This document shows, one piece after another, positions 863-23,672 of a DNA stretch of 24,464 nucleotides. Every line of letters starts with the position of its first letter. Position 1 is the stretch's first letter. This DNA comes from a virus, in IMG/VR virus record IMGVR_UViG_3300025120_010918, positions 1 to 24,464 of that record. One strand, written 5' to 3'. The notes beneath the pieces are model-generated. The model was not told the DNA's origin. It did not search any database and saw only the letters and a list, made by a program, of their open reading frames with translations. The translations under genes and the position numbers were made by a program.

Positions 863-1863
863 ATCAATTTCTTCTTCCAAGTATCAGGAGTTTGGTCATT
901 GATAATTTCTAGCGGCAAGTGGTATTGAAACTTTTTTGTACCTCTGGTTCTTATGTACTCGGCTGTCTTCTTGACTGACTGTCGCATGTTTGTCGCTGTG
1001 TTGTATCCTAATAAATCCCTTGCTTTGTCTGATGAACACACTGCTAGTTTTACTTCCTTGGGTCTGTCTTTGTGATGTATGGGATCTAAATTAAGTCCTG
1101 TTTCGTTTGCACATGCCTCTGCTAACTCATTGATTGTTATAGGTTCTTCGTCTGGTCCTATATTAATTACTTCACCAACAACGTTATCACGAAATGCTAA
1201 TGCATTCAAACAATACAAACAATCATCAATGTAACTGAAACATCTTTGTTGCTTGCCATCTCCATATATGATAGGCTGTTTGCCTTGTAACATTCTATTC
1301 AACATGATGGACATAACATTTCTAAACGGGTCGTCGTACTTCTGTCTTGGTCCAACTATGTTGTGTGGTACAGCAATTACGTACTCTACTCCATGTGTTT
1401 CGCATAAGTTTCTTAACACATCTTCGCCGGCCTTCTTTGCGATTCCATATGGATCTTGAGGACGACACTCGTAAGTTTCTTTGTATGGCATCTCATCATG
1501 ATGTCCATATCTTGCCATGCTAGAACAATACACAATACGTTTTACTTTGTTCCTTATGGCCGCCGTAATAGTTGTAACTGATGCTTCAAATATATTTCGT
1601 GTAACAAGCACAGGAGAAAATACTGATAGTCCTTCGTAAGCCGTAGCGGCAGTATGATACACTATGTCACAACCCTCCATGGCTTTGGTCATGTTCTCCA
1701 AATCGCAACAGTCCACTTGGTGAAACTCTACATTCTGCGGAACATTATCTGTATAACCACCAATCATATTATCATTACCAGCCACGGTGTGGCCTTCTGA
1801 TATCATTAAATCTGCTAGATGAGAACCTAAAAATCCTGCTACACCTGTTATAAAAATTTTCAT
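859..1863 (-). CDS. NAD-dependent sugar epimerase/dehydratase (extended SDR)
   Basis: A 334-aa extended short-chain dehydrogenase that probably modifies a nucleotide sugar in the cytoplasm. The N-terminal Rossmann motif is TGVAGFLGSH (residues 6-15), fitting GxxGxxG for NAD(P) binding. The catalytic set is visible as CSSM (113-116) and YGIAK (Y139, K143). Later motifs such as FSYIDD and INIGPDEEPITI are those of UDP-glucose 4-epimerase-like and dTDP-sugar dehydratase-like enzymes. The exact reaction (epimerase, dehydratase or reductase) cannot be decided from sequence alone. Length is normal for the family. The gene follows the FkbM gene after 19 bases and overlaps the next glycosyltransferase by ATGA, so it belongs to the minus-strand operon. 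No clear Shine-Dalgarno sequence precedes the ATG. Confidence 0.85.
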   Translation of the reverse strand: MKIFITGVAGFLGSHLADLMISEGHTVAGNDNMIGGYTDNVPQNVEFHQVDCCDLENMTKAMEGCDIVYHTAATAYEGLSVFSPVLVTRNIFEASVTTITAAIRNKVKRIVYCSSMARYGHHDEMPYKETYECRPQDPYGIAKKAGEDVLRNLCETHGVEYVIAVPHNIVGPRQKYDDPFRNVMSIMLNRMLQGKQPIIYGDGKQQRCFSYIDDCLYCLNALAFRDNVVGEVINIGPDEEPITINELAEACANETGLNLDPIHHKDRPKEVKLAVCSSDKARDLLGYNTATNMRQSVKKTAEYIRTRGTKKFQYHLPLEIINDQTPDTWKKKLI

Positions 1864-1882
1864 TTTGAGTATTTAATTTAAG

Positions 1883-2509
1883 TTATGCACGATAAAAAAC
1901 TTTATCAGGCCAGTGTTCTATCAGCACCTTGAACCCTAGCGAGCTTATATGTTTCTCTATTTCGGTATTAGTGCTTCCATATTTTTTAGTGTTGTTGTTT
2001 AATTCTATCATTAGGTACATTATATTTTTTAATGTGTTCTTTGCACCTTTCAACACTTCCATTTCATATCCTTCGACGTCGATCTTGATCATGTCAACAT
2101 CCTGACAATTTAAATTATCTAGTGTTGTCATTCTTATGTCACCCTGTCTATCCACTCTTTTTGCCTGTGTAAAATTGTCTTCCGTCAATGATATTTCTTT
2201 TATTTCCGAACCAACTGCTTCCATTCTAGGGTGGCAGTTAATCGTACAGTTCTTTTGTAAACATTCAAAATGTGTTTTGTCGGGTTCGAATGCAATTACT
2301 TTTTCAGCATATGGTTCGATGGCCTTAGACCATGTTCCGCACCATGCACCCACATCTATCACAGTTTTCATTTTTTTATTTTGCACTTCACAGTGCTTTA
2401 GAAACTTATTCAAACATTTATTTTGAGTGAAAGGTTGTCCAGACTTCCATTGCTCTATGTGTATATCGTTTGATGGTACCCAAAAGCCGTTAATTTTTTC
2501 TATTTTCAT
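1883..2509 (-). CDS. FkbM family methyltransferase
   Basis: A 208-aa SAM-dependent methyltransferase. Motif I is VIDVGAWCGTW (residues 50-60) and the next acidic motif is FEPD (74-77). The FkbM signature TTLDNL (128-133) followed by DMIKIDVEGYE (139-149) is clear. FkbM members O-methylate sugars or small hydroxylated molecules, and many lie in polysaccharide clusters, so glycan methylation is the likely job here. The start ATG overlaps the stop of the preceding gene as ATGA. An AAAGGA ribosome binding site lies 6-7 bases upstream. No sign of truncation is visible. Confidence 0.85.
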   Translation of the reverse strand: MKIEKINGFWVPSNDIHIEQWKSGQPFTQNKCLNKFLKHCEVQNKKMKTVIDVGAWCGTWSKAIEPYAEKVIAFEPDKTHFECLQKNCTINCHPRMEAVGSEIKEISLTEDNFTQAKRVDRQGDIRMTTLDNLNCQDVDMIKIDVEGYEMEVLKGAKNTLKNIMYLMIELNNNTKKYGSTNTEIEKHISSLGFKVLIEHWPDKVFYRA

Positions 2510-3318
2510 AATATTCCTTTGTCCATCAATATCTCAACTGCTGTACCGTTGCTGATCTCCTCCGGAGTGAACTGTTGGTATGCTAGACTGTACAACCATG
2601 GTTCGGGTCCAGCATAAAAAGGATCCTCAATATCTTCTAGGTTTAAATTGCCCATTGGCTCAGCAAAACTTTTTCTATCACAGAACACAGGCACGCCCAT
2701 ACAAACGGCCTCAACAGCACTGATACTGCAACTGGTCACACACGCCCAAGCATCTTTTAGGTCCTCGGATAAGGGTACCTTTGCCTCACTTGGTCCTGAT
2801 GTACCTCTGCCCCTAGGCTTGTCTCGAAGTTTGATCGGCCTGTCAGTGACTCTTTTTAATCTATCTATCGTGTCTTGCGTCCAATCTGGAGTGTCGAGAT
2901 AGTTGTGGATACCTGTTGAACTAGGACACACTAAAATATATGAGCCTTTCAACGTTGGCGCTTTAATCTGCATTCCAAATTTTTCAAACCTATCTGCTTT
3001 ACAATCTTTTAAAAATCTTGCATGTATTTGATTTTTACATACACGCCAATAATGATTATCCTGTTTTAAATTGTTATTGTCAAATCTACCAAAGTATGGA
3101 GTGTCAGTGAACCAGTAATTGTGATTACGTGCTTCTAATTTCTTTATCATCGGTCTGTTGTTGCCAACAAATCCCCAAAACATGCTGTTGTTCACCGGAT
3201 CCGTTTCTTTGGTGTTATCTAACTTGGCTATCTGGTCTGGCCACGACTTTTCAACGCCGGCAAACACTTCCCATGCTTTGCTGTTTTTATTATTAAATGG
3301 TGCGTAAATTGTTAACAT
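2506..3318 (-). CDS. Capsule-polysaccharide/Kdo-transferase-like glycosyltransferase (paralog 1 of 4)
   Basis: A 270-aa protein and the only minus-strand member of a four-gene family in this window (others at 6980, 7785 and 11397). Shared blocks are a strand ending TDRPIKLR (about 158-165), the segment DAWACVTSCSISAVEAVCMG (189-208) followed by VPVF, and a C-terminal LAYQQFTPEEISNG (245-258). The last two blocks resemble the C-terminal nucleotide-sugar half of GT-B proteins of the KpsS/KpsC capsule type. Where two paralogs have RPHP, this one has RDKP, so activity or donor may differ. It overlaps the SGNH gene by 26 bases and the FkbM gene by ATGA. The family call is by motif resemblance, and the sugar is unknown. 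Confidence 0.6.
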   Translation of the reverse strand: MLTIYAPFNNKNSKAWEVFAGVEKSWPDQIAKLDNTKETDPVNNSMFWGFVGNNRPMIKKLEARNHNYWFTDTPYFGRFDNNNLKQDNHYWRVCKNQIHARFLKDCKADRFEKFGMQIKAPTLKGSYILVCPSSTGIHNYLDTPDWTQDTIDRLKRVTDRPIKLRDKPRGRGTSGPSEAKVPLSEDLKDAWACVTSCSISAVEAVCMGVPVFCDRKSFAEPMGNLNLEDIEDPFYAGPEPWLYSLAYQQFTPEEISNGTAVEILMDKGIL

Positions 3319-3958
3319 CTATAAATTCTTTAATTTGTTTTGCCCACTGCCTATGTCCTTCTACTGATGGGTGTGGATCGTTTGGACTTACGATTAAATT
3401 TTTGTCTGATATAAATTCTAGTTGACTTGTCCCTGGACTAAAAAATCTATCCATATTGATTGCATTTTTAATTACATTAAAGTCCTCTGTGCCATTACCA
3501 AAATTATTAGGCAATGAATTATACATAACGTAAGGTATCCGCTTACGTTCAAAATAATTCTGTAAATCAAAAACATTATCAAGAAAATTCATTGTAAGAT
3601 TATTTTCTATGTCCCACCCCTTGTGGTTACGTATGAAACTTACATTGTCTAATGTCTTCCATGTTCTCCACGTGAGCTCTGTGCCTGGGCTACGACCTTT
3701 CTTCCATCCGTCATCCGTTATGTAATCATTCCTGATTGAACTCGACCATCCTATGACAGCAAAAATCTTTTCATCCTTATTTTGTTCGCACCAAACTTTT
3801 GTAGAAAAACTTATCCTGGTATTGCCCCTGCCACCCATGGCCAAGTTGACGAGTCCTATATCATAATTGTCTGCCAGTATCTGTGTGGTAAAAGTTTCCA
3901 CACCATCTTTATTTCTTGGTGTTAGGAAACTACATCCATTTGATAATAATTTGCTCAT
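3293..3958 (-). CDS. SGNH/GDSL hydrolase-like protein
   Basis: A 221-aa protein with the layout of SGNH hydrolases. Block I is NGCSF (residues 7-11, with the candidate nucleophile S10), followed by a glycine/asparagine block MGGRGN (41-46) and a C-terminal NDPHPSVEGH (193-202) supplying the Asp and His. In glycan clusters such proteins often add or remove O-acetyl or other acyl groups, which would fit here. The ATG at 3958 is preferred over an in-frame ATG at 4027. The latter would run across the divergent promoter and overlap the start of the opposite gene. It is the first gene of the minus-strand operon and overlaps the next by 26 bases. No signal peptide is seen, so it probably acts in the cytoplasm. 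Confidence 0.65.
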   Translation of the reverse strand: MSKLLSNGCSFLTPRNKDGVETFTTQILADNYDIGLVNLAMGGRGNTRISFSTKVWCEQNKDEKIFAVIGWSSSIRNDYITDDGWKKGRSPGTELTWRTWKTLDNVSFIRNHKGWDIENNLTMNFLDNVFDLQNYFERKRIPYVMYNSLPNNFGNGTEDFNVIKNAINMDRFFSPGTSQLEFISDKNLIVSPNDPHPSVEGHRQWAKQIKEFIDVNNLRTI

Positions 3959-4006
3959 GCTGTTGTTTAATAGTATAATTATAGTGTAGTTATTCACAAA
4001 ATGCAA
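3951..4006. promoter_or_regulatory. Symmetric bidirectional promoter
   Basis: The 50-base gap between divergent genes is centred on the perfect palindrome TATAATTATA (3974-3983). On the plus strand, TTGCTC (3951-3956), a 17-base spacer and TATAAT (3974-3979) form a sigma70-type promoter. On the minus strand, TTGCAT (4006-4001), 17 bases and TATAAT (3983-3978) form another. The two -10 boxes share bases, so only one can be opened at a time. Predicted leaders are about 23 bases (plus) and 13 bases (minus). The -35 boxes match consensus at only 3 of 6 positions. Confidence 0.55.
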
Positions 4007-4008
4007 AC

Positions 4009-5088
4009 ATGAAAAACATAGATTCAATCAAGTATTTTCTAGAAAAATGGGAAACTGTTGATACAAGTTACGATTACACCGTTCCATATCATGAGGACAT
4101 AGATCCAAATTTCACAAGTTTACCAACTTTTGTTGCTGAATTTTATGATTGCAAAGTACATAGTTGTCCGTTACTTGTTACCTATCAGCAGAAATTGATA
4201 ACCAATTATATATGGGGCCTTACCGATCAACGCAGAAACAAACCAGACAAGACACACAGACTTTGGAAAGAGTGGGGAGACGAGGTACACGCAGATCTAC
4301 CGCCCGTTAGTGAACACTTTCATGAGAAATATAATTATGTTTGGTTGCCTATCGACGAAGAGAGTGTTAACAATCCATGGCACATATGGATCGATGTCAT
4401 ATCTAAATTTAGATTATTAGAAAAGAGATGGTCCACCGATTTCACAAAATACTGCTATGTGTTGGCAAACGAGAGCGGATATTTTAAAAAAGTAATTCAA
4501 GAATTATTTCCTGAAATTAAAGTCCTTGTCATGCCAAAAAACGAAACATGGCAATTCAAACATTTACTTGTACCCAGTGCAAGTAATTCAAAAGATGGAG
4601 TAATTACGCCCCACCTGGCACCATGGCTGAGACACTTCAAAGGTATCAATAAAGATCAAAAAGAACCACATAGAAAAATTGTTGTACTGCGTCCAGGAGC
4701 AAAAACAAGACGACTTACCAATTCCGAAGAATTATTATTGGCCTTGAAAGGATGGGAAACAATAGTATTAGAGACCATGACAATTAGAGAACAAATTAGA
4801 ACATTTGCTGAAGCAACCCACATTGTTGCGGCACATGGAGCAGGGTTGGTTAACCTACTTTGGTGTAAGCCGGGTACAAAAGTAATCGAAATACAAGACA
4901 GAAAAATGATTCATAAAAAGGTTTATCCACTGCTTTCATACCACCTCGGATTGAAACATGAACTATATTTGGCAGACACAGTGCCAATAAAATTAAAAGA
5001 CGGTAAAAAACCCAAAGGTATTAAAAGAATAAGTGATTTAATAAATTTTAAAATTGATATACCTGACTTGCTTAAATATCTTGATTGA
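4009..5088 (+). CDS. GT61 (DUF563) family glycosyltransferase
   Basis: A 359-aa protein with the hallmarks of glycosyltransferase family 61. The middle has NPWHIWIDVISKF (122-134), in the place of the family's N-x-x-H-x-x-x-D stretch. After it comes RKIVVLRPGAKTRRLTNSEE (222-241), the usual basic block before the C-terminal domain. The signature AAHGAGLVNLLW (274-285), followed by PGTKVIEIQ, is very clear. The family includes xylosyl- and other pentosyl/hexosyltransferases, and bacterial and phage members usually sit in surface-glycan clusters. It is the first gene of the plus-strand arm, served by the divergent promoter. No membrane segment is visible. Donor and acceptor are not known. Confidence 0.85.
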   Translation: MKNIDSIKYFLEKWETVDTSYDYTVPYHEDIDPNFTSLPTFVAEFYDCKVHSCPLLVTYQQKLITNYIWGLTDQRRNKPDKTHRLWKEWGDEVHADLPPVSEHFHEKYNYVWLPIDEESVNNPWHIWIDVISKFRLLEKRWSTDFTKYCYVLANESGYFKKVIQELFPEIKVLVMPKNETWQFKHLLVPSASNSKDGVITPHLAPWLRHFKGINKDQKEPHRKIVVLRPGAKTRRLTNSEELLLALKGWETIVLETMTIREQIRTFAEATHIVAAHGAGLVNLLWCKPGTKVIEIQDRKMIHKKVYPLLSYHLGLKHELYLADTVPIKLKDGKKPKGIKRISDLINFKIDIPDLLKYLD

Positions 5089-5090
5089 CA

Positions 5091-5990
5091 ATGAAAATTA
5101 AAGTAATTACATCATACAAACCCGGTTGTTGGAATCTATACGCTAAAAAAGGAATAGAATCAATGGCAGAACAATTTCCTAAAGAAATTGACTTGGTTGT
5201 TTATGCTGAAGAACCAAAACGGCCATGCAAATTCGAAAGGATCGAGTGGATAGATTTAAAAACTGCAGAGCCTGAACTTACTGCATTCAAACAGAGACAC
5301 AAGGATGATCCAGTGGCTCATGGCAAATTAGAAACTAAAGAAAATGGCGTTCGTAGAGTACCTGAACTGCAAACGCTTGGCGGCTCTGACAAGAACAAAG
5401 AATCTTTCTTATGGAATGCTGTGCGTTTTGCAAACAAAGTATTTTGTGTAGTCAATGGACTACGTAATTCCAAAGGCTATGACTATGTGGTTTGGATAGA
5501 TGCTGACACATTTTCGTTTCGCCCTGTTCCACTGGATTGGTTTGAGAAATTATTACCAAACGATACCATGGTCACTTACCTTGGCAGAGAAAATCCAAAG
5601 TTAGGTGATGGTGGCAAATATCCCGAGTGTGGCTTTGTTGGTTATAATTGTAATCATCCAGAAATACAGAATTTCATAGACGACTGGGAGCAATTATACG
5701 TGACCGACAATGTATTCAAGATTTTAGAATGGCATGACAGTTACGTTTTTTGGCATTTAACAAAAATATACAGGAAAGAAAAAAATATAAAAGTGAATGA
5801 CATCGGTTATTGGAAAGGTGTAAAAGGACACCATGTGTTTGTAAACAGTGAACTCGGTTTATACATGGATCACATGAAAGGCAATCGTAAAACAAAAGGC
5901 ACCAGCGTCAAGAACGATCTTAGACAAAATCCAAACGTCAAAGTAAATGTGCAGGACATAGAATATTGGAAAAAAGTACCGCCAGCGTAG
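5091..5990 (+). CDS. DxD-motif (GT-A) glycosyltransferase, twin of 10540-11397
   Basis: A 299-aa protein starting MKIKVITSYKPG. A DAD motif inside VVWIDADTFSFRP (133-145) is the metal and nucleotide-sugar site of GT-A glycosyltransferases. ECGFVGYN, a typical middle block, follows. The ATG at 5091 is chosen over an in-frame TTG at 5085 because the twin gene at 10540 starts at exactly this point, MKIKVITSYKPG. The start lies two bases after the stop of the GT61 gene. The two twins are alike over almost their whole length (shared SELGLYMDH and KGNRK near the end), which indicates duplication inside the island. A tail of about 35 residues after that is charged and variable. The sugar is unknown. 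Confidence 0.78.
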   Translation: MKIKVITSYKPGCWNLYAKKGIESMAEQFPKEIDLVVYAEEPKRPCKFERIEWIDLKTAEPELTAFKQRHKDDPVAHGKLETKENGVRRVPELQTLGGSDKNKESFLWNAVRFANKVFCVVNGLRNSKGYDYVVWIDADTFSFRPVPLDWFEKLLPNDTMVTYLGRENPKLGDGGKYPECGFVGYNCNHPEIQNFIDDWEQLYVTDNVFKILEWHDSYVFWHLTKIYRKEKNIKVNDIGYWKGVKGHHVFVNSELGLYMDHMKGNRKTKGTSVKNDLRQNPNVKVNVQDIEYWKKVPPA

Positions 5991-6009
5991 ACAACCATAA
6001 TTACATTAA

Positions 6010-6993
6010 ATGAAAAAGATTGCATTTGTAACCGGCATGACCGGACAGGACGGTCCTTACCTAGCCAAACATTTACTTGAAAAAGACTACAAAGTTTATG
6101 GGCTGGTAAAAAGATACAGTAATCCTAATCTATCTAATCTCAATTATCTCGGAATAGAGAATGAGGTTGAATTGATAACTGGTGATATCACTGACGATGC
6201 AAACATGAATCATTTGGTAAGGACTATCAGACCAAACGAATTTTATAATCTTGCCGCACAAAGTTTTGTAGGTGCAAGTTGGGAACTAAACAAGCAAACA
6301 ACAGAAGTAAACGCAGTGGGCGTATTGAACGTCCTTAATGCAATCGTCAATCAAAATCCGCTTACACGATTCTATCAGGCAAGTACTAGTGAACTCTATG
6401 GCAATGCAAACGTTGAAGGCGTACAAGATGAGGACACGCCATTCCATCCACGTTCACCGTACGGTGTTTCTAAATTGTATGCATACTGGATGACCATTAA
6501 CTTCAGAGAAAGTTACAGCATACATGCTTCTAATGGAATATTGTTCAATCATGAATCGCCAATAAGAGGCAAAGAATTTGTAACGAGAAAAGTCACGGAT
6601 GGAGTTGCCAGGATAAAATTAGGACTGGCAAAAAAAATTACTCTAGGAAATTTAGATGCAAAAAGAGATTGGGGATTTGCTGGTGACTTTGTTGAGGCCA
6701 TGTACACAATGGTACAAGAAAAAAATCCTGGAGACTATGTAATATGCACAGGAGTACAACATACTATCCGAGAATTACTTACCCATGCTTTTAGAACCGC
6801 CGATATAGAAGATTGGGAACAATACGTTGAGTCCGATCCACGTTTCAAACGTCCAGCGGAAGTACATGCATTGCATGGATCATATTCAAAAGCAAAAGAA
6901 AAACTAGGATGGGAACCTAAAACCGAATTCAGAGACATGGTTGCTTTGATGGTTAACGAAGATATAAAGAGATTGTCCCATGATCTACGTTAG
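6010..6993 (+). CDS. gmd: GDP-mannose 4,6-dehydratase
   Basis: A 327-aa enzyme that converts GDP-D-mannose to GDP-4-dehydro-6-deoxy-D-mannose, the branch point to GDP-fucose, GDP-rhamnose and perosamine. The NADP-binding motif is TGMTGQDGPYLA (8-19). Catalytic T126-S127-E128 lie in ASTSELYG, and Y151 and K155 in YGVSK. LFNHESPIRGKEFVTRK is the diagnostic GMD stretch for substrate and tetramer contacts. It is slightly shorter than the usual 340-370 residues but has all key motifs. The gene begins 19 bases after the glycosyltransferase and overlaps the next gene by 14 bases. No obvious GDP-fucose synthase is seen. The SDR at 859-1863 or a host enzyme might complete the pathway, which is inference. 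Confidence 0.93.
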   Translation: MKKIAFVTGMTGQDGPYLAKHLLEKDYKVYGLVKRYSNPNLSNLNYLGIENEVELITGDITDDANMNHLVRTIRPNEFYNLAAQSFVGASWELNKQTTEVNAVGVLNVLNAIVNQNPLTRFYQASTSELYGNANVEGVQDEDTPFHPRSPYGVSKLYAYWMTINFRESYSIHASNGILFNHESPIRGKEFVTRKVTDGVARIKLGLAKKITLGNLDAKRDWGFAGDFVEAMYTMVQEKNPGDYVICTGVQHTIRELLTHAFRTADIEDWEQYVESDPRFKRPAEVHALHGSYSKAKEKLGWEPKTEFRDMVALMVNEDIKRLSHDLR

Positions 6994-7795
6994 TTCTACA
7001 AACAGGAAACTTACTGAAAAATATGTTGACTGGGCTGTACAAGGTTTGCCAGATGCTAAAAAACTTCCACCAACTCAAATAATAGACAAGACAGACTGCA
7101 CCAAGGCAGTGATGTTTGGTGTACTACGTGGCACTCATCTAGTTTACAAATGGGCTCAGCAAAACAAAATTAATTTCTACTACATGGATCGACCTTATTG
7201 GGGAGAGACAAGAAATAGTCCTTTTTACACTAAAATTGTAAAGAACAATCATCTAAAGAACTGGCAAGAAAATAGGCCGGACGATCGTTTTAAACAATCA
7301 TTTCCTTGGCCTATAAATCCATGGAAGAAAGACGGCAAGAACATAATTGTGTGTCCACCATCCAACGCTATTAAAGAGTTTTTTGGAGTGCATGATTGGT
7401 TGGACATGACTTTAGCAACACTAAAAGCAAACACGGATCGGCCGATCATAATAAAAAATAAAGGGTATAATCCTATAATGGAATATGATAAAGACGGTGG
7501 CATGATAGTCAAAGGCAAAGATAACACGGCGCCGAGTGGTCCTATTAACTGGAAAGATGCTTTTGCTATTGTGACTTATAATTCAAATATTACGTTGGAG
7601 GCAACTACAAGAGGCATACCTTGTTTTACTGATAAACACAATGCCTGTGCACCTATATCTGAAACAGATTTCTCAAAAATAGAAACACCTAAATATATCG
7701 ACAGAGAACCGTTATACCATTCATTGGCATACGGACAGTTCACAGCAGAAGAAATTAAAAACGGACGTGCTTGGAGAATTTTAGATGAAGGTTGA
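6980..7795 (+). CDS. Capsule-polysaccharide/Kdo-transferase-like glycosyltransferase (paralog 2 of 4)
   Basis: A 271-aa protein most like the minus-strand paralog at 2506-3318. Shared landmarks are an aromatic/Pro block YYMDRPYWG (67-75), IIVCPPSNAI (122-131), TDRPIIIKN (152-160), DAFAIVTYNSNITLEA (193-208) with GIPCF (212-216), and the end block LAYGQFTAEEIKNG (249-262). At the place of the RPHP motif of two other paralogs it has KNKG, so this basic site has been lost or moved. The ATG lies inside the end of gmd (14-base overlap), and the gene itself overlaps the next paralog by 11 bases. Probably a GT-B fold sugar transferase. The role is inferred from family resemblance and context. Confidence 0.6.
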   Translation: MIYVSSTNRKLTEKYVDWAVQGLPDAKKLPPTQIIDKTDCTKAVMFGVLRGTHLVYKWAQQNKINFYYMDRPYWGETRNSPFYTKIVKNNHLKNWQENRPDDRFKQSFPWPINPWKKDGKNIIVCPPSNAIKEFFGVHDWLDMTLATLKANTDRPIIIKNKGYNPIMEYDKDGGMIVKGKDNTAPSGPINWKDAFAIVTYNSNITLEATTRGIPCFTDKHNACAPISETDFSKIETPKYIDREPLYHSLAYGQFTAEEIKNGRAWRILDEG

Positions 7796-8765
7796 AATTT
7801 TTAGAAGGACAGTTAAAGACAGACGTAGGGGAGCAAGTTACGATCTCTTACAACACATGGCAGAAGGCATCAGAGCGTGTGGTGACGAACCAATCATGGT
7901 GAATGAAAAAAAGACTGGAGAATGGACTAAGAATGAAATGGAGCCAACCCACCCAATTGGTTGCATGTTTGGGTACGGAGGTAGTAACCAAAAACATCAC
8001 ACAAAAGGCCGTAGACGGGATTTAGTAGAACGTGCAAAGAAAAAAGGAATCAAGATAATAACATTTGACGGTGGCTTACTTTCAAGTTTTGGTAATGTAC
8101 ATGGCCCAAAACATCATTGGCGAGTTTCGTTGTTTTCTCCAATGAACAACGGCGATTTCCTGTCAGACAACAGTCCTCCTGATAGGTGGGAGGCCGCAAA
8201 GGCGAGATGGAATATTAAAAGTGGAGCATGGCGAAAATCAAATCAAGAAGATCCTATTATGTTTGTTCTGCAACCAAAAGATAACTGGAGCATGAACGAT
8301 CTTGATCCCATAGAATGGTTTCACAGTGTGTATGAAAAATTAAGGCCAATAACAGATAGAAAATTTATAGTGCGTCCTCATCCTAATCATGTTGTTCACA
8401 TTGAAGAACGAATGAATGAATTTCCTGAGGACGTTGAAGTTATTATAGGTCAAAAATATTTTAATGGAGACGAGAAAAAGTACTACAGATTTCATTTCCA
8501 AGAAGCAATAACTAATGTTCATGCTGTTGTTACTCACAATTCTACTGCCGGTGTCGACTCTTGCGTTCGTGGAATCCCTACCTTTAATACCTCAGATCTT
8601 GCAATCAGTTGGCCTGTAGCAAATAGAAATCTAAATAATATTGAAACTCCCGAATATCCTGACCGGACACAGTGGCTTTACGACCTAGGATACAAACTGT
8701 GGAGTGAAAAAGAAATAAGGGATGGCACAGTCTTTAAAAGATATAAGACAAAGTTAGGATTATAA
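7785..8765 (+). CDS. Capsule-polysaccharide/Kdo-transferase-like glycosyltransferase (paralog 3 of 4)
   Basis: A 326-aa protein, the longest of the four paralogs. It keeps the RPHP motif (197-200) in KFIVRPHPNH, typical of the capsule Kdo-transferase (KpsS/KpsC) type. VVTHNSTAGVDSCVRGIPTF (248-267) is the nucleotide-sugar-side block, and it has the C-terminal family signature LGYKLWSEKEIRDG. The N-terminus (MKVEIFRR, then an arginine-rich stretch and MFGYGG) differs from paralogs 1 and 2 and has an MKVE start like paralog 4. The stop shares one base with the start of the asparagine synthetase gene (TAATG), suggesting coupled translation. Acceptor and donor are unknown. Confidence 0.62.
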   Translation: MKVEIFRRTVKDRRRGASYDLLQHMAEGIRACGDEPIMVNEKKTGEWTKNEMEPTHPIGCMFGYGGSNQKHHTKGRRRDLVERAKKKGIKIITFDGGLLSSFGNVHGPKHHWRVSLFSPMNNGDFLSDNSPPDRWEAAKARWNIKSGAWRKSNQEDPIMFVLQPKDNWSMNDLDPIEWFHSVYEKLRPITDRKFIVRPHPNHVVHIEERMNEFPEDVEVIIGQKYFNGDEKKYYRFHFQEAITNVHAVVTHNSTAGVDSCVRGIPTFNTSDLAISWPVANRNLNNIETPEYPDRTQWLYDLGYKLWSEKEIRDGTVFKRYKTKLGL

Positions 8766-10525
8766 TGTGCGGCATATACGGTATAACTGATTACGACCCA
8801 GAATTTATACAACAGTTTATAAAGAAATGTGAACACAGAGGACCTGACGGCAACAAGGTCTGGTGGGATCCTGACCATAAACTGACACTGGGTCACAACC
8901 TGTTGAGCATAATGGCAAACCCACAACTCTCTATACAGCCATGGAAGACACCCAAAGGTAACACACTGGTGTACAATGGTGAGATATTCAACTACTACGA
9001 ACTGAAACAAAAATACAATGGGAAAGGTTTTGCTGGTATCACTGGGTGCGATACAGAATTGTTGGCGTGGGGACTAGACGAATTTGGATTGGATTTTATT
9101 GATGAGATAGATTCCATGCACGGTTTTGCATATTACCGCAAAGACGAACAACAACTTTGGCTATCTAGAGATCATGCTGGCATCAAGCCATTGTACTATG
9201 CTGAAATCAAAGAGGGATTGGTATTTGGTTCTGAAATAAAGGGCATGTTAGACAAGGTACCGGGAAGCAGAAAAATGGATAATCTCGCAGTGAGTTTTAT
9301 GGCAAGGACAGGAATCAATGCACTACGTAATACTTTTTTCACTGGCATTAAAAAGTTATTGGCCGGCGAGACAATAGTGTACGACATAGCAAAAAAGCAA
9401 ATTATAAAAACACACCGGGTGCATATCAAACCAACAAGTGATAAAAATTTTAATGCCGAAGAGTTTAGAAACATGGCACACAAAACAGTTAATATGTGTT
9501 CCATTGGGCGAAGGAAGATTGGTGTGTTCTTGAGTGGTGGTCTAGATTCTAGCGTTATTGCTTATGAATTAAAACAAATAAAAGGTGAGGTAAACACGTT
9601 CACTAACAGAATGAATCCAAATGTTCAGGCAGATGAAGACTACAACAGTGATGCTAACTGTGCCAAGATATTGGCTGAACAAAATAATTTCAATCACAAA
9701 GAAGTTGTGATAACACCAGAGTCGTTCATAGACAAGTGGGACGACAGCATATACTACATGGAGCAACCTGTGTACAATCCTAGCATGTCAATGTACTGCT
9801 ACACCAACAAGTTCCTAGCAGACAATGATATAATCGTTACACTCGCTGGAGACATGGGAGATGAGATCCTAGCAGGGTATCCAAAATATTGGAAGATGAA
9901 AAATCCTGAATGGTTAGAAAAACAGATAGGAAAAACTAAAATAGAAAGTTGGGATGACGTGCTTAAACTTTGGCTACATAGAATAAAACGTCCATTAAAA
10001 CTTACAGACAATCCTGTAAGTGATGACATATTACTCAAAGAGTTTAAAAAATGTTATGAGGGTGAACTATGGAATCCAGACGATCCTATAGGCTCCCATA
10101 TGGCCTTAGACTGTGTTGCCCAAGTACCTGAAGAGATGTTCAGCAGAAACGACAAGTACGGTATGGCATACAGTATGGAAGGACGTTTTCCATTAGCAAC
10201 TAAAACTTTTATGAAATACTGCATGAGCATACACACAGATAAAAAATTAGGGCCAGATAAAAATGATACAAAAATTTTCATTAAGAAAGCATATGACGGA
10301 AGACTACCTAGCGAGATTATTAACAAACAAAAAACAGGATGGACAGTTCCTGTAGGACATTGGCTGACAACAAGCACCAGCAGTAAACTAAACAATTTCT
10401 ATAAGGAACGAACAGGCACAGCGTCTAAACTTGATATAACAAAAGCAAGTCAGAAAGCGGGCAAGGCATTGATACCTGCATGGATTGTAAGTGACTGGAT
10501 TAAAAAGTACAACATGACAAGGTAA
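8765..10525 (+). CDS. asnB: Asparagine synthetase B (glutamine-hydrolysing) family
   Basis: A 586-aa two-domain enzyme. The N-terminal class II glutaminase starts with Met-Cys (MCGIYGI). Cys2 becomes the N-terminal nucleophile. HRGPDG (24-29), NGEIFN (71-76) and GCDTE (94-98) complete the glutamine site. The C-terminal synthetase domain has the PP-loop SGGLDSS (257-263) that binds ATP, then GDMGDE, EGRFPL and a final KTGWTVPVGHWL. The classic reaction is Asp + Gln + ATP to Asn + Glu. In polysaccharide clusters such proteins (WbpS/AsnB type) are thought to amidate uronic acids instead, which fits this setting better. Length and motifs are intact. It shares one base with the upstream gene and is followed 14 bases later by a glycosyltransferase. 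Confidence 0.92.
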   Translation: MCGIYGITDYDPEFIQQFIKKCEHRGPDGNKVWWDPDHKLTLGHNLLSIMANPQLSIQPWKTPKGNTLVYNGEIFNYYELKQKYNGKGFAGITGCDTELLAWGLDEFGLDFIDEIDSMHGFAYYRKDEQQLWLSRDHAGIKPLYYAEIKEGLVFGSEIKGMLDKVPGSRKMDNLAVSFMARTGINALRNTFFTGIKKLLAGETIVYDIAKKQIIKTHRVHIKPTSDKNFNAEEFRNMAHKTVNMCSIGRRKIGVFLSGGLDSSVIAYELKQIKGEVNTFTNRMNPNVQADEDYNSDANCAKILAEQNNFNHKEVVITPESFIDKWDDSIYYMEQPVYNPSMSMYCYTNKFLADNDIIVTLAGDMGDEILAGYPKYWKMKNPEWLEKQIGKTKIESWDDVLKLWLHRIKRPLKLTDNPVSDDILLKEFKKCYEGELWNPDDPIGSHMALDCVAQVPEEMFSRNDKYGMAYSMEGRFPLATKTFMKYCMSIHTDKKLGPDKNDTKIFIKKAYDGRLPSEIINKQKTGWTVPVGHWLTTSTSSKLNNFYKERTGTASKLDITKASQKAGKALIPAWIVSDWIKKYNMTR

Positions 10526-10526
10526 C

Positions 10527-10538
10527 GTAAATATTTAC
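10527..10538. repeat. 12-base perfect palindrome GTAAATATTTAC
   Basis: A perfect inverted repeat fills the short gap between the asparagine synthetase and the next glycosyltransferase, ending one base before the ATG at 10540. It could be an operator, an AT-rich promoter element or chance. No matching copy was noticed in the other gaps. Confidence 0.3.
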
Positions 10539-10539
10539 A

Positions 10540-11397
10540 ATGAAAATTAAAGTTATCACATCATACAAACCCGGCACATGGAATCATTATGCCAAACGAG
10601 CAGTCAACAGTGTGTTGCAACACTGGCCGGAAGATACTACTGTTTCAGTATATCATGAATCCCAAACACAAGACTTGTTCGAACATCCGAGAGTCGAATG
10701 GATTGATGTGCATGAAGTACAACCAGAACTACTAAAGTTCAAAAACAAGTGGAGGGACGATCCCGTGGCTAATGGTGAGATACAGGAGATTCCTAATGGT
10801 ATGCGTAGACCAACCCCCATGCCTTCCAAAGGGTCATTCCAATGGAACGCTGTTAGGTTTTCAAACAAAGTGTTTTGTGTCACACATGCCCTTGAAAATT
10901 CTACTGAGTGCGATTATGTTATCTGGTTAGATGCTGACACTTATTCTTTTAGACCCATGCCATCCAGTTTCTTAGAAAAATTGTTGCCAGCAGACACCCT
11001 AATCACCTATCTAGGAAGAGAAGATCAAGACCCGGAATGCGGATTTGTTGGTTACAATCTTAGCCACCCTGAGCTACAAAACTTTAAAAAGGAGTGGGAA
11101 CAACTTTACGTAAATGATGAAATATTCAAACTTACATCAGGATGGACCGACTGCTCGTCCCTGATCCACTTATCCAACAAATACCAAAAATATAAAAATA
11201 TTAAAGTAAATGATATAGGCCATGGAAAAAAAGTTATGGGCCATCACGTATTCATAAACAGTGAACTAGGTTTATACATGGATCATTTCAAAGGCAATAG
11301 AAAAAAACTACAGAAAAGCAATAAGAAAGATTTTAAACTACAGACATCAGAGTCTACAAAAAAATTAACAGAACTAGAATATTGGAAAAAAATTTAA
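10540..11397 (+). CDS. DxD-motif (GT-A) glycosyltransferase, twin of 5091-5990
   Basis: A 285-aa protein beginning MKIKVITSYKPG, like its twin. The DAD motif lies in VIWLDADTYSFRP (127-139). ECGFVGYN follows, as does the shared ending SELGLYMDH and KGNRK. Compared with the twin it lacks a short insertion before the central WNAVRF block. The first roughly 45 bases of both genes are nearly the same at DNA level, so duplication or later gene conversion is likely. The stop overlaps the next gene's ATG by one base (TAATG). The likely role is adding a second residue of the same glycan or using a related donor. The substrate is unknown. Confidence 0.78.
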   Translation: MKIKVITSYKPGTWNHYAKRAVNSVLQHWPEDTTVSVYHESQTQDLFEHPRVEWIDVHEVQPELLKFKNKWRDDPVANGEIQEIPNGMRRPTPMPSKGSFQWNAVRFSNKVFCVTHALENSTECDYVIWLDADTYSFRPMPSSFLEKLLPADTLITYLGREDQDPECGFVGYNLSHPELQNFKKEWEQLYVNDEIFKLTSGWTDCSSLIHLSNKYQKYKNIKVNDIGHGKKVMGHHVFINSELGLYMDHFKGNRKKLQKSNKKDFKLQTSESTKKLTELEYWKKI

Positions 11398-12266
11398 TGA
11401 AAGTAGAAGTTTGGACACAGTACGGGCCTTTGAACTCAGAACTTATTTTCAAAGCGTTTATAAAAAGTCTTCAAGACGCAGGCGACGAAGTTGTATTGAA
11501 TAGAAACAGTGATGCAGATGTGGCTGTGATCTGGAGCGTATTGTGGATGGGGAGAATGCGTAACTACAAACAAATTTGGCAAAAATATAGACAAGCCAAC
11601 AAACCAGTAATAGTGCTAGAAGTTGGAGGACTAAGACGGAACAAAAGTTTTAAGATTGCAATAAATGGCGTCAATAGGAAAGCGGACTTTGCCAATCAAG
11701 AAGTCGATGAAAAAAGGTGGCACCTGTTTAACCACGAACTCAAACCATGGCAACAAAGAGGACAGACTATAATTTTACTCGGACAACACCATGCTTCTGA
11801 ACAGTGGGCAGGAATGCCAGATATGAGAACTTGGTTTGAATCACAAGTACAACAAATAAGAAAGCACACAGATCGTCCAATACAAATCAGGCCCCATCCA
11901 AGAAACAACGTTGGCTTTGATGTTAAAAAATATCCAAACGTGACTCTAAAACATCCTGTAATAGATGTTAGCAAAATAGATGACACAGATTTCAAAGACA
12001 CATTAAAAGATGCTTGGGCAGTTGTGAATCATAGTTCTAATCCGGCCATGGAGGCTGTTATAAATGGCATACCTGTGTTTGTGTCTGAGGCCAGTCTTTG
12101 CTATGAAGTTGGCAATCATTCTTTAGATACAATAAACAATCCTGTCATGCCAGAAAGAAAATCTTGGACAAACAAATTATCATACACAGAGTGGTTTCCA
12201 GACGAAATTGAAAAAGGATTGCCATGGAAAAGAATCAGAACCAGACTAGAGGAGACATACCTTTGA
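11397..12266 (+). CDS. Capsule-polysaccharide/Kdo-transferase-like glycosyltransferase (paralog 4 of 4)
   Basis: A 289-aa protein. The ATG at 11397 overlaps the previous stop (TAATG) and is preferred over an in-frame TTG at 11382. It keeps RPHP (165-168) in the context TDRPIQIRPHP, then DAWAVVNHSSNPAMEAVING (205-224) with IPVF, and the C-terminal family block LSYTEWFPDEIEKG. The conserved stretches line up with those of the paralogs at 2506, 6980 and 7785. The N-terminal half has DVAVIWSVLW and VIVLEVGGL, which fit beta strands of a GT-B N-terminal domain. It ends overlapping the TTG start of the next gene by four bases. Role inferred as a surface-glycan sugar transferase. Confidence 0.62.
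   Translation: MKVEVWTQYGPLNSELIFKAFIKSLQDAGDEVVLNRNSDADVAVIWSVLWMGRMRNYKQIWQKYRQANKPVIVLEVGGLRRNKSFKIAINGVNRKADFANQEVDEKRWHLFNHELKPWQQRGQTIILLGQHHASEQWAGMPDMRTWFESQVQQIRKHTDRPIQIRPHPRNNVGFDVKKYPNVTLKHPVIDVSKIDDTDFKDTLKDAWAVVNHSSNPAMEAVINGIPVFVSEASLCYEVGNHSLDTINNPVMPERKSWTNKLSYTEWFPDEIEKGLPWKRIRTRLEETYL
12247..12265 (+). promoter_or_regulatory. Ribosome binding site that supports a TTG start
   Basis: AGAGGAG (12247-12253) lies 9 bases before a TTG at 12263, whose last bases overlap the previous stop (TTGA). This is a better start signal than the ATG at 12224, which has no such site and would overlap the previous gene by 43 bases. Confidence 0.5.
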
Positions 12267-12988
12267 TCGACGCAATAGAGTTCAAACCATATGTGGGAGA
12301 AACTGTAAACACAGTTCTTAGGATAAAGAACGGAAAAAAGACACAGGAAACCGAGTGGTATCCTGATAAGATTAAAGCAGTGCCGAGAGGTAATGCATAT
12401 TGCATAGGTAACGGGCCATCTCGTAAAGATTTTGACTTGAACAGATTGAAAGCATCAGGCCAAACATACGGGTGTAATGCATTGTACAGAGACTTCATGC
12501 CTGACTTCATATTCTCTGTGGATCAGAAGATGTCCACACAGATGGTGGAAGACGAAGTTGGATTGAAGACTGTACACTACGCTCCTGCCCTGGAAGTAAA
12601 CAGGAAACAGAGCAAAGGCATGATAAACCTTATACCTAACAATCCACACTGGATATCAGGCAATCAAGCATTCTGGACGGCGGGAGTACACGGACACAAG
12701 AACATATATCTCATAGGATACGACTTTAGGGAGTATGGCAAAGGAGAACTGAACAACATATACCAAGACACTGCCTGCTATGGCGAACGTAATGATGATC
12801 AAATATTTGATGGATGGTTAAAACAGTTCCGCGATATGTTGAAGATGAGGCCTTATGTGAACTACACAGTAGTACATGACAGTCCGCCCGAATACATGAA
12901 CCACTTACAGACTGGAACTGATCTCGGTAACAGTAGAGTTATAACTTATGCGGAGTTTGAAAAAGAACTAGCATCTGGCCAGACGTAA
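12263..12988 (+). CDS. GNGPS-motif protein, possibly DUF115/MptE-like
   Basis: A 241-aa protein from the TTG at 12263 (254 aa if the ATG at 12224 is used). The central motif CIGNGPSRKDFDLNRLK, followed by YGCNALYRDFMPDFIFSVD, resembles the DUF115/6-hydroxymethylpterin-pyrophosphokinase-like group and other proteins of glycan clusters. In these, a GNGPS loop is followed by a 'name and place in a catalogue' Rossmann-like domain ending in a D after PD-F. A later IYLIGYDFREYG strand supports the same fold. It is the last gene of the plus-strand island and its end overlaps the convergent SprT-like gene by 21 bases. Proteins of this kind have been tied to sugar transfer or motility-associated glycosylation. 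The exact role here is unknown. Confidence 0.5.
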   Translation: MIDAIEFKPYVGETVNTVLRIKNGKKTQETEWYPDKIKAVPRGNAYCIGNGPSRKDFDLNRLKASGQTYGCNALYRDFMPDFIFSVDQKMSTQMVEDEVGLKTVHYAPALEVNRKQSKGMINLIPNNPHWISGNQAFWTAGVHGHKNIYLIGYDFREYGKGELNNIYQDTACYGERNDDQIFDGWLKQFRDMLKMRPYVNYTVVHDSPPEYMNHLQTGTDLGNSRVITYAEFEKELASGQT

Positions 12989-20292: not shown

Positions 20293-21306
20293 ATGAATCT
20301 TATACAGAATACAATTCTGACTAGTCTTCCTGCGAACAGAAAGAAGACCCCAAGCGGATGGATCAGTTTCAACGCACCTTGTTGTGTGTATAATGGCGAA
20401 TCAGCAGACAAGAAGAAGCGTGGCGGTATAATGACCAGTGCCGACGGCACAGTCAGTTATCACTGTTTTAACTGTGGTTTCAAAGCGAGCTATGTGATAG
20501 GACGTAAACTGACCTACAAGATGAGACAGTTCATGGGATACATCGGAGTTCCAGATGACACTATAAAGAAACTTGCCATAGAAGCCATGCGTGAGGAAGA
20601 AGGCGATGTCAAGTATGAGAAGAAAAAGTTTGTAACATTTGGCAAAAAAACTTTGCCAAACAATACTAAATCATTAGACACGTGGTTAGAAAAATACACC
20701 ACAGGAACATTATCAGATGTAGAACAGAAAAGAATAGACAACTTGTTAACCTATCTGTCTAGCAGAGGTATAGGTGCTGACTGGTATGACTTCATGTACT
20801 CTCCAAACAAAGTGTGGGACGTGTATCAACGATTATTGATACCATTTTATTGGCGAGGAGAGGTTGTAGGATTCACGGGCAGGATGTTTGAGGAATCAGA
20901 TGGAGTAAAGTATTACACAGATGTATGGCCTGGATACGTGTTCAACATGGATGCACAAGATTGGACGAGAAAATTTGTAATAGTAACTGAAGGACCTTTC
21001 GATGCTATATCCGTTTCTGGTGTAAGCATACTTGGTTCGGAGATAAATGATACACAGCGAGAGCTGATAGACAACCTTGGTAGACAAGTGATTGTTGTAC
21101 CAGACCGAGACGCACCAGGAGAAAAACTTATTAATCAAGCAACAGAATTTGGATGGAGTGTAGCGTTCCCAGAATGGAACGAAGATGTGAACGATGTAGC
21201 AGATGCCGTGTTGAAGTACGGGAGACTGTTCACAATTCAATCTATATTAAAAACAACAGAGACCAGTAAATTAAAAATAGATTTGAAAAGAAAGATGTAT
21301 GGTTAA
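20293..21306 (+). CDS. 61: DNA primase (T4 gp61-like)
   Basis: A 337-aa primase that makes RNA primers for lagging-strand synthesis with the gp41 helicase. The N-terminal zinc-binding site is APCC (C30, C31) plus CFNCGF (C58, C61). A second part (about 150-215) includes LLIPFYWRGEVVGFTGR, the primase RNA-polymerase basic domain. The TOPRIM domain has TEGPFDAIS (232-240, with the catalytic Glu) and PDRDAPG (270-276, with the DxD-type acids). Length is close to T4 gp61 (342 aa). It starts 13 bases after the structural gene with no strong promoter seen in the gap, so late readthrough may contribute. Its stop overlaps the radical SAM gene by 8 bases. Confidence 0.9.
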   Translation: MNLIQNTILTSLPANRKKTPSGWISFNAPCCVYNGESADKKKRGGIMTSADGTVSYHCFNCGFKASYVIGRKLTYKMRQFMGYIGVPDDTIKKLAIEAMREEEGDVKYEKKKFVTFGKKTLPNNTKSLDTWLEKYTTGTLSDVEQKRIDNLLTYLSSRGIGADWYDFMYSPNKVWDVYQRLLIPFYWRGEVVGFTGRMFEESDGVKYYTDVWPGYVFNMDAQDWTRKFVIVTEGPFDAISVSGVSILGSEINDTQRELIDNLGRQVIVVPDRDAPGEKLINQATEFGWSVAFPEWNEDVNDVADAVLKYGRLFTIQSILKTTETSKLKIDLKRKMYG

Positions 21307-22207
21307 TTTTCACATAGAGCCCACAAGTAAATGCACCTTAGAATGCAAGTTATGTGATAGAACTTGGTTCTATGAAACTTTTAAGCGTAGGAACTTGCAT
21401 GAAATAAACATCGAGCATCTAGCGGACTTCGTTGGTATGAATACAGAAATAAGTTTGTGTGGCAACAATGGAGATCCTATATATCACTCACAGTTTCATG
21501 AACTTTGCCAAAGACTCAAAGATAATAATTGTAGCATACACATACACACAAACGGGTCTGCCAAATCAAAATCTTGGTGGAGCAAACTTAATAATATATT
21601 GACTAAAGACGATTGTATTACTTTTGCACTAGACGGACTGGAAGACACAAACCACCTGTACAGGAAGAATGCCAAATGGGGATCCATTATGTCTGCGATA
21701 AAAACATTAAAGAACAGAAATTTCAAAATGATATGGCAGTTCATTCCTTTCAAACATAATCAACATCAGATACTAGAGGCTGGCAATTTAAGTAAAAAGT
21801 TAGGATTTGATGAATTCAAACTGCTACAGAGTGACAGATGGCTAGGGCAGAAAGACCTCATGCCTGACAGAGAATACGTTGACAATTACTACCAACATCA
21901 AAAGCAAGTTTTAATCAACCCAACTTACACCGCAGGCATGAACCCTGAATGCCTAGTAGATAAAAAGCCAAGTAACCAGATGTACATAGATGCAGAGGGA
22001 GACTTCTATCCTTGCTGTTACATAGGCACCTATAGATACAAGTATAAATCAGTATTCTCCCCGAAACAACAATCATTTAATATAAAGGACAACACATTTA
22101 ACCAAATAATGGAAAACAACAACATAAAAGACTTCTTTGAATCAACAAAACAATTTACTTCTGCTCATGAATGTTGTAAAATACAGTGTGGAGTAAAACA
22201 TGGCTGA
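21299..22207 (+). CDS. Radical SAM enzyme with SPASM-like C-terminal cysteines
   Basis: A 302-aa enzyme that would use a 4Fe-4S cluster and SAM to make a radical. The start, HIEPTSKCTLECKLCDR, holds the CxxxCxxC site (C12, C16, C19). LCGNNGDPIYH stands where the SAM-binding GGE-type motif is expected, then HTNGS and FALDGLED follow in the order of a radical SAM barrel. The end has several cysteines (FYPCCYIG ... HECCKIQC) like an auxiliary-cluster (SPASM/twitch) domain. Such enzymes modify peptides, nucleosides or sugars. The target is unknown. It is wedged between primase and helicase with 8-base overlaps on both sides, so it is co-translated with the replisome genes. Confidence 0.87.
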   Translation: MVNFHIEPTSKCTLECKLCDRTWFYETFKRRNLHEINIEHLADFVGMNTEISLCGNNGDPIYHSQFHELCQRLKDNNCSIHIHTNGSAKSKSWWSKLNNILTKDDCITFALDGLEDTNHLYRKNAKWGSIMSAIKTLKNRNFKMIWQFIPFKHNQHQILEAGNLSKKLGFDEFKLLQSDRWLGQKDLMPDREYVDNYYQHQKQVLINPTYTAGMNPECLVDKKPSNQMYIDAEGDFYPCCYIGTYRYKYKSVFSPKQQSFNIKDNTFNQIMENNNIKDFFESTKQFTSAHECCKIQCGVKHG

Positions 22208-23672
22208 TTATAAAGAACAACACTCGCAGGCTAAGAACTATTCGTTTGATGTGCAGAAATTGTATATCGAGATGCTATTGGCCGATGCAGAATCATTCGC
22301 AAGGGCACAGAACATATTCAAGCCAGAATCTTTTGATCGTAAACTACAACCCATCGCAAAGTTCGTCAAGGACTACATGGACGAATACAAAGTGATGCCG
22401 GAAGTTGATATTGTGAATGCAGAACACGATATCAAACTAAAAACAGCAAAGGACTTAGACCCAGCACACTTCAACTGGCTGTTGGATGAGTTTGAAACAT
22501 TCTCGAGACACAAGGCACTGGAACATGCGATACTTTCGTCTGCGGATCTATTGGAGAAGGGGGACTATGCTCCCGTTGAGGACATGGTCAAGGAAGCAGT
22601 CAATGTAGGACTGACTCGAGACTTAGGCACAGACTACTTTGAAGACCCGAAAGGAAGACTAGAGGCACTCAAGGCAAACAATGGACAGATCAGCACTGGC
22701 TGGAACAACTTAGACAAGAAACTGTTTGGGGGTTTCAACCGTGGAGAACTAAACATCTTTGCAGGTGGATCAGGTGCAGGTAAGAGTTTGTTCTTACAGA
22801 ATCTTGCAGTTAACTGGGCACAGGCTGGACTAAATGTTTGTTACATTTCTTTTGAATTAAGCGAACAACTAACTGCTATGAGATTAGATGCTATGATGAC
22901 AAACATTCCAACAAAGAAAGTGTTTCCTGAAATAGATAATGTAGAAATGAAAGTTAAAATGTTAAAGAAAAAATCAGGTACATTACAGATCAAATACTTG
23001 CCTAGTGGTAGTAACGTGCTAGATGTGAGAACATATTTGAAAGAGCTAGAACTTAAGAACAAGAAAAAAATAGATTGTATACTGATCGACTACTTGGATC
23101 TGATGATGCCAAAGAGCAAACGTATAAGTCCGGCGGACTTGTTCATAAAAGACAAGTATGTGTCTGAGGAACTAAGGAACTTGGTTGTTGAGAAACACTG
23201 TGTATTGGCAACAGCATCACAGTTGAACAGGGCGTCCGTTGAAGAGATAGAGTTTGATCACTCTCACATCTCTGGTGGACTGTCCAAGATACAGACAGCA
23301 GACAACGTGATTGGTATATTCACTAGTAGAGCTATGAAGGAGCGTGGAAGATATCAGATACAGTTCATGAAGACTAGATCCAGTTCGGGTGTAGGACAGA
23401 AAGTAGATTTGGAGTTTGACGTAGATAGTCTGAGAATAAGAGACCTTGCAGATGATCCAGAATACAAACAGTTTGACAAACAACGTAGCACAATATATGA
23501 TTCTCTAAAACAAACATCTAAGGTATCTGCAGGTAATAGCACACCAAAAGATGCGAGACCGGAAGTGCCAGATCCACGTAAGGGTGACACAGTGGGCAAG
23601 GTGAAGGCCACAGTCGAAGGCGGAAAACTGAGACAACTTCTAAACGAACTGCACTCAGATGAAGAACAGTAA
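22200..23672 (+). CDS. 41: Replicative DNA helicase (T4 gp41/DnaB-like)
   Basis: A 490-aa hexameric 5'-3' helicase that drives the replication fork with gp61. The N-terminal domain (about 1-145) is the gp41-type interaction domain. The RecA-like domain starts at TGWNNLDKKLFGGFNRGEL (166-184). Walker A is GGSGAGKS (189-196), and Walker B is ILIDY (294-298) inside CILIDYLDLMMP. ATASQLNR is the motif 3 sensor and QFMKTRSS the arginine/DNA-loop region. The last 70 or so residues are a charged linker (DARPEVPDPRKGD) plus a short helix ending in acidic residues. A GTGGAG ribosome binding site sits before the ATG at 22200. It overlaps endonuclease III by 14 bases. Confidence 0.93.
   Translation: MADYKEQHSQAKNYSFDVQKLYIEMLLADAESFARAQNIFKPESFDRKLQPIAKFVKDYMDEYKVMPEVDIVNAEHDIKLKTAKDLDPAHFNWLLDEFETFSRHKALEHAILSSADLLEKGDYAPVEDMVKEAVNVGLTRDLGTDYFEDPKGRLEALKANNGQISTGWNNLDKKLFGGFNRGELNIFAGGSGAGKSLFLQNLAVNWAQAGLNVCYISFELSEQLTAMRLDAMMTNIPTKKVFPEIDNVEMKVKMLKKKSGTLQIKYLPSGSNVLDVRTYLKELELKNKKKIDCILIDYLDLMMPKSKRISPADLFIKDKYVSEELRNLVVEKHCVLATASQLNRASVEEIEFDHSHISGGLSKIQTADNVIGIFTSRAMKERGRYQIQFMKTRSSSGVGQKVDLEFDVDSLRIRDLADDPEYKQFDKQRSTIYDSLKQTSKVSAGNSTPKDARPEVPDPRKGDTVGKVKATVEGGKLRQLLNELHSDEEQ

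Follow-up and report, generated by a model that had tools for sequence, protein, structure and literature searches.

What is a radical SAM gene doing between the two replication genes of a virus? The question is raised by a 24,464-bp virus record, which we refer to in full as the window and which, to judge by its size, is a fragment. A preliminary description had reported an open reading frame (ORF) for a radical SAM protein between the primase and helicase genes, with a CxxxCxxC motif, extra C-terminal cysteines and eight-base overlaps with both replisome genes, and all of these we could confirm. It had also proposed that the gene was inserted with translational coupling kept and that the enzyme might act on DNA precursors or on a replication protein, and these proposals fared differently in the analysis presented here.

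Organisation of the primase–helicase locus

The names gp61 and gp41 given to the flanking genes in the preliminary description are right by function, as they encode a primase and a DnaB-like helicase (see Table 1 for coordinates), but the nearest annotated relatives of both are found in the jumbo phages PA5oct, Atu_ph07 and Phosso (35–54% identity) and not in T4. In PA5oct, Phosso and Vibrio phage 2.275, as in relatives with empty junctions, the two genes lie end to end or almost so, with nothing inserted, which bears out the view that the radical SAM gene was inserted. The primase–radical SAM–helicase layout is common to about 50 orthologous loci, so it is not a chance arrangement of ORFs. 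The overlap at the start of the inserted gene is exactly eight nucleotides in nearly all of the distinct junctions, and in empty junctions the primase and helicase genes also overlap by eight nucleotides (49/57). The geometry is thus retained on insertion, and with it the translation of the cargo would presumably be coupled to that of its flanks. By eye, the left half of the window (155–12988) looks like a dense glycan-type island with glycosyltransferase-, epimerase-, asparagine-synthase- and methyltransferase-like ORFs.

Table 1. Features of the window and the evidence for each (positions are those of the window)
Feature	Position	Strand	Evidence
DNA primase gene, whose 3' end borders the slot on the left	20293..21306	+	PHROG 47, E = 5.9e-37; dnaG/Toprim matches
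Place of the putative sigma70-like promoter of empty genomes, TTGnnG-N15-TGn-TAnAAT; degenerate in the window	21188..21217	+	Genome comparison
Overlap of eight nucleotides, ATGGTTAA, primase stop with cargo start codon	21299..21306	+	Exact; 46/47 distinct radical SAM junctions
Radical SAM/twitch cargo gene, 302 aa, ATG start	21299..22207	+	
CxxxCxxC motif (C12, C16, C19), radical SAM [4Fe-4S] site	21332..21355	+	Invariant in 44 orthologs
C-terminal auxiliary-cluster domain with invariant C218, C239, C293 and C297	21950..22189	+	Alignments; SPASM Pfam match
Putative replacement helicase promoter within the cargo coding sequence: −35 TTTACT (22154–22159), 17-bp spacer, −10 TAAAAT (22177–22182)	22154..22182	+	Synonymous constraint, wobble conservation, consensus scan
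GGAG Shine-Dalgarno-like site for the helicase, at the cargo 3' end	22190..22193	+	Conserved, G/G/A/G 1.00/1.00/0.95/0.89
Overlap of eight nucleotides, ATGGCTGA, cargo stop with helicase start	22200..22207	+	Exact; 39/46 radical SAM junctions
DnaB-like replicative helicase gene, bordering the slot on the right	22200..23672	+	PHROG 19, E = 5.8e-74; DnaB_C

The radical SAM protein

The 302-aa protein matches Pfam Radical_SAM (E = 2.8e-8, 34.6 bits against a cut-off of 29.5) and, over residues 223–297, Pfam SPASM (E = 7.7e-7, 29.7 bits against 21.5). Orthologs were retrieved from about 50 loci (45–78% identity); 44 of them form alignment A1, and a wider alignment, A2, has 23 rows. The cysteines of the cluster motif (C12-TLE-C16-KL-C19) are invariant in both, as are those of C218-x20-C239 ... 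C293-x3-C297, while C240 and C292 are nearly invariant; the ortholog alignments also have the signature FKHNQHQI, and GNxGDP where GGEP is expected. SPASM domains carry two auxiliary clusters and have seven conserved C-terminal cysteines, and twitch domains carry one cluster and have four. Although the Pfam SPASM match lies above its cut-off, both alignments have the four invariant C-terminal cysteines of a twitch domain and not seven, and the twitch is therefore favoured over a full SPASM domain. The cysteine pattern fits a domain of the one-cluster twitch type, and the earlier label SPASM-like stands for the Pfam match but is better narrowed to twitch.

An AlphaFold2 model (pLDDT 92.9) has the radical SAM/SPASM-twitch fold, and a fold search with it returned SuiB, DesII, anSME and MoaA at Z 17–19, with SkfB also among the closest; because the first four are near ties, the fold cannot name the substrate. 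All NCBIfam equivalogs score far below their cut-offs (in bits, NirJ 41.5 against 515, tungsten-cofactor maturase 48.9 against 380, QueE 27.8 against 206, MoaA 22 against 284, and viperin 24.9 against 180), so that QueE membership is rejected and no housekeeping family claims the protein. NCBIfam, PHROGs, PADLOC, and PDB sequence and fold searches placed it at superfamily level only. The enzyme is under purifying selection, with a dN/dS of about 0.14 at a dS near saturation.

The junction as an insertion slot

Junctions were retrieved by means of the primase or helicase and not the radical SAM gene, which removes the bias towards filled junctions. When related phages with and without the gene were compared, as the preliminary description had proposed, many junctions were found to be empty and others to hold unrelated genes: of the 62 distinct junctions selected by primase, 30 were empty, this radical SAM gene was present in 20, and the remaining 12 had other inserts. 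On the same contigs, 52% of primase–helicase junctions have insertions compared with 0–10% of the adjacent ones (g20–primase 2%, Fisher p = 1.7e-11 versus the slot; helicase–endoIII 0/25, p = 9e-7; polA–g20 7%, p = 2.7e-8). A rare insertion of ~1.15 kb was observed between the g20 gene and the primase gene in L037, L041 and L047. The state of the junction appears nearly uncoupled from flank phylogeny, with 26–29 changes of radical SAM state on the flank-gene trees and 24–37 with shuffled labels, and the nearest flank relative of the window (L084, 91/97% at the amino acid level) has an empty slot.

The other inserts, for which some group names rest on motifs, include GDSL/SGNH-like proteins (GDSH...DxxH, weak Pfam matches), a 2OG-Fe(II) oxygenase (HxD...H; a moderate-confidence model has 2OG oxygenases as its listed fold matches), at least two further radical SAM-like proteins, P-loop/sulfotransferase-like and methyltransferase-like proteins each named by motif only, a 52-aa coiled coil, and a DUF2061 membrane protein. 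A third radical SAM-like family of 395 aa (CSMKF...NCHAAAPH) occupies the same slot in L369, L471, L489, L493, L500, L516, L544 and L550. No endonuclease gene was recognised among the translated inserts, and on this ground we rejected a homing-endonuclease hotspot.

Phages of the window clade, with slots filled or empty, also have a second island (L334:7650-12111, L335:6536-13091 and L336:6763-12119) with two to three radical SAM genes and short reductase, sulfotransferase-like and GDSL-like genes. Slot cargo is distantly homologous to island genes in the case of the other radical SAM type (29%, E = 4e-45) and the GDSL-like type (23%, E = 3e-8); for the reductase-like and P-loop types, no link between slot cargo and the other radical SAM island was found.

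Genes starting with ATGG..T.. would drop in at the ATGG common to the primase end and the helicase start, which is possible since the final codons of the primase gene already provide a ribosome-binding region and the eight-nucleotide overlap would keep translation coupled. In these last codons, a synonymous AGGA Shine-Dalgarno motif is present in 32/54 filled and 4/58 empty genomes, and the difference holds on independent pairs. On this comparison of sequences, the primase–helicase gap of marine phages serves as a plug-in slot that accepts enzyme genes unrelated to one another.

Both the location of the gene and its eight-nucleotide coupling geometry would suit an enzyme that modifies the primase, the helicase or the phage nucleotides, as had been suggested earlier. 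We consider such a role in replication very unlikely because unrelated genes fill the same slot and the slot is empty in close relatives, half of which do without the gene. The divergence of the radical SAM protein also tracks that of the helicase weakly (Mantel r = 0.17, p = 0.1), and the protein, as described above, is not a member of QueE. The radical SAM gene is optional cargo and no part of the replisome.

Promoter-like sites in the primase gene

Along the primase gene, empty and filled genomes differ little as far as ~21163 and then sharply: 3' of this position the empty genomes are nearly invariant, synonymous sites included, and the radical SAM genomes are not, with no such difference seen in the helicase gene. 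The constrained block (21163–21235) matches an RNA polymerase footprint in size. The wobble sites that are fixed in empty genomes (0.97–1.00) belong to TTG, as the −35, and to TG and TAAAAT, as an extended −10, with several spacer wobble sites dropping to 0.53–0.71. This is the pattern expected of a sigma70 promoter, i.e. −35 and −10 hexamers at 16–18 bp and conservation beyond codon need. It should be noted that the sequences are fragments of uncultured viruses.

In the first set of genomes, from which the thresholds were taken, the exact geometry TTGnnG-N15-TGn-TAnAAT is found in 55/56 empty genomes and in 9/9 whose slot holds a coiled-coil, 2OG or membrane gene, but in none of the 54 with radical SAM, GDSL-like, P-loop-like or other radical SAM cargo (0/44 for this radical SAM gene alone). 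A deduplicated second set, used for the primase geometry only, gave 44/44 empty genomes, 5/18 with other cargo and 1/2 with the radical SAM gene. The pattern is absent from the primase 3' end of the window itself. The isolates taken as an outgroup, which are PA5oct, Atu_ph07, Phosso and Vibrio 2.275, have a promoter at neither this place nor the cargo end, and the primase promoter therefore looks particular to this clade.

Promoter-like sites at the cargo 3' end

The last ~75 nt are the most synonymously constrained part of the radical SAM gene (excess 0.5–0.78 against a mean of 0.115), and here we found the motif TTTACW-N17-TAAAAT, immediately ahead of the helicase start. Conservation is 0.95–1.00 at most wobble sites of the hexamers (0.50 at 22159) and mostly 0.50–0.76 at those of the spacer, and the first base of the −10 also belongs to the codon for the cluster cysteine C293. 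The GGAG site which follows has a mean anti-Shine-Dalgarno energy of −5.3 compared with a baseline of −2.5. An exact TTnAnn-N17-TAAAAT is found in 29/44 radical SAM genomes and is absent in that form from 15/44, so that the site is a weaker one than that in the primase gene. In all seven GDSL-like and P-loop cargo genes, TTGGAT or TTTAAA-N17-TATAAT lies 5–6 nt upstream of the helicase ATG, in a leaderless geometry, and the other radical SAM gene of L147 has TTGACT-N17-TATAGT; the background for such promoter scores is about 13% of tiles. In the out-of-sample 395-aa radical SAM-like cargo, a promoter-like site has its TATAAT 21–23 nt before the helicase start. No terminator was found.

In single genomes, consensus scans found promoter-like sites no more often than in shuffled sequences, and for this reason the case for promoters rests on comparison. 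On the helicase tree, about 18 independent pairs differ in cargo of the promoter type. Such cargo and an intact primase promoter changed together in 0 of these and in opposite directions in 14.6 (p~6e-5), while promoter-type cargo and a helicase-proximal promoter gave 11.8 same and 0.2 opposite (p~5e-4). Exceptions are L009 and L016 (both radical SAM plus coiled coil) together with L423, which are without either site, and L514 (radical SAM) and L513 (P-loop cargo), which retain the primase promoter. The latter two resemble intermediates in which a newly filled slot would still have both promoters, and most of the primase tract is also preserved in L013. Size alone does not explain the split between cargo types since genes of 0.6 kb are among the cargo that retains the primase site.

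We suggest that, where the slot is empty, a sigma70-like promoter within the primase 3' end would drive the helicase gene. This promoter would be lost with radical SAM, GDSL-like and other radical SAM cargo (and the P-loop-like cargo of the first set), each of which would supply a promoter-like element at its own 3' end, from a few to 23 nt upstream of the helicase start, and would be kept with the small coiled-coil, 2OG-oxygenase, methyltransferase-like and membrane cargo.

The conserved tracts might also be read as recombination or homing footprints of cassette exchange, kept in empty genomes and broken or co-converted on entry, and the sharp left border at about 21163, a tract from there to the junction that differs by state when the helicase gene does not, and the very frequent switching of junction state would all agree with this. 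We regard it as unlikely, however, as a homing target would not be retained at wobble positions in empty genomes, the strongest constraint lies on TTG, TGn and TAnAAT with a freer spacer, the geometry survives in divergent empty genomes in which hexamer bases 4–5 vary, the tract is unbroken when small cargo enters, and no nuclease gene was seen among the inserts of the slot. The reading we think probable is that the slot takes plug-in genes and that the radical SAM gene is one such optional cargo, with the putative helicase promoter moving from the primase gene to the cargo end. We lean, with less assurance, towards the more general proposal of a standardised plug-in site with a shared eight-nucleotide start overlap, in which larger cargo must bring a helicase promoter in its C-terminal codons and the resident one is discarded, so that the choice of cargo and helicase expression would be exchanged as one unit.

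This would amount to a rule for fitting accessory genes into an essential operon while leaving it functional: the start overlap is preserved, and the next core gene either retains its promoter or receives a new one. More than 100 distinct junctions show the rule, and its main prediction held in genomes outside the discovery set. It also follows that neighbouring replisome genes are no guide to the function of phage cargo, and that synonymous constraint can expose promoters hidden in the coding sequence of uncultured viruses.

Probable role of the enzyme

More distant phage relatives of the enzyme sit in islands where radical SAM enzymes account for 30 of the 90 neighbouring proteins, with genes for an Asp/Arg hydroxylase, a 2OG-oxygenase, a halogenase and a UDP-sugar dehydrogenase in the same islands. 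Because of this company we favour a tailoring role: most likely the enzyme modifies a small molecule, sugar or surface polymer and is not part of replication, with the substrate as the weakest step of this argument, and a tie to surface or glycan genes is plausible. Cellular relatives are common in Bdellovibrio-like bacteria (L237–L313), sometimes in several copies per genome, where the mixed gene neighbourhoods point to no clear pathway.

An alternative is that the enzyme is a RiPP-type peptide or protein maturase with its precursor encoded elsewhere in the genome, given that SuiB and SkfB, which modify peptides, and anSME, a sulfatase maturase, are among the nearest folds (Z 17–19). We find this possible though doubtful: the fold does not discriminate, with DesII, MoaA and BtrN scoring nearly as well (18.8, 17.5 and 15.8), and the junction leaves no room for a precursor ORF as it is filled exactly by the cargo in 39/46. 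No adjacent RiPP precursor peptide gene was found at the junction, where the only candidate is a coiled-coil ORF of 52–53 aa in a few genomes. A weak PADLOC match to pVip (E = 1e-7) would suggest a viperin-like enzyme producing chain-terminating nucleotides as a block on competitors, but this is extremely improbable as the viperin score is far below the NCBIfam cut-off, other radical SAM families score higher, and an auxiliary cluster domain is present. A tailoring enzyme remains our preferred reading.

Radical SAM genes can be numerous in uncultured phages, and we note that the G009 contig (L337 and L338; 179,647 bp) has 23, mostly in one 40-kb island, and that two other phage contigs have 14 and 9, with Fe-S assembly genes on three of the large contigs. 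The phage operon of the window, with the radical SAM gene in the slot, is also found on a 16.5-kb contig (L236) from a bin assigned to Pelagibacter, which gives a weak hint of the host.

Comparison with known systems

Phage morons are cargo genes that bring along a promoter and a terminator. Like the slot cargo, they are optional and unrelated genes between conserved phage genes, but here the putative promoter is at the cargo end and would serve the next core gene. Amongst characterised enzymes, BtrN, MoaA, DesII and SuiB (twitch/SPASM enzymes) are alike in fold, CxxxCxxC motif and C-terminal cysteine domain, whereas the window protein has GNxGDP for GGEP and the signature FKHNQHQI, and no equivalog model scores above its cut-off.

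The lytic Campylobacter phages CP220 and CPt10 have 11–12 radical SAM genes, some of which belong to a module that can be exchanged, with nucleotide-sugar transferase-like genes close by (PMC2853527); this is a multigene module with no stated tie to the replication operon or a promoter, and identity to the window protein is only 23.5%. Closer in habitat, the marine pelagimyophages have radical SAM cassettes in hypervariable islands (PMC7029224) and the T4-like marine TARA_ERS488813_N000010 has 12 radical SAM genes (PMC5332604), and these cassettes are gained and lost as here. The relevant portions of the two reports place them in the host-recognition island and do not describe a primase–helicase slot or promoter exchange. 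We found no description of the slot or of cargo-linked promoter exchange in the literature on insertion hotspots, primase and helicase, internal promoters, and morons. Radical SAM cargo in phages is therefore already known, and it is the slot and the proposed promoter exchange, as cases of a phage cargo slot, that appear to be new.
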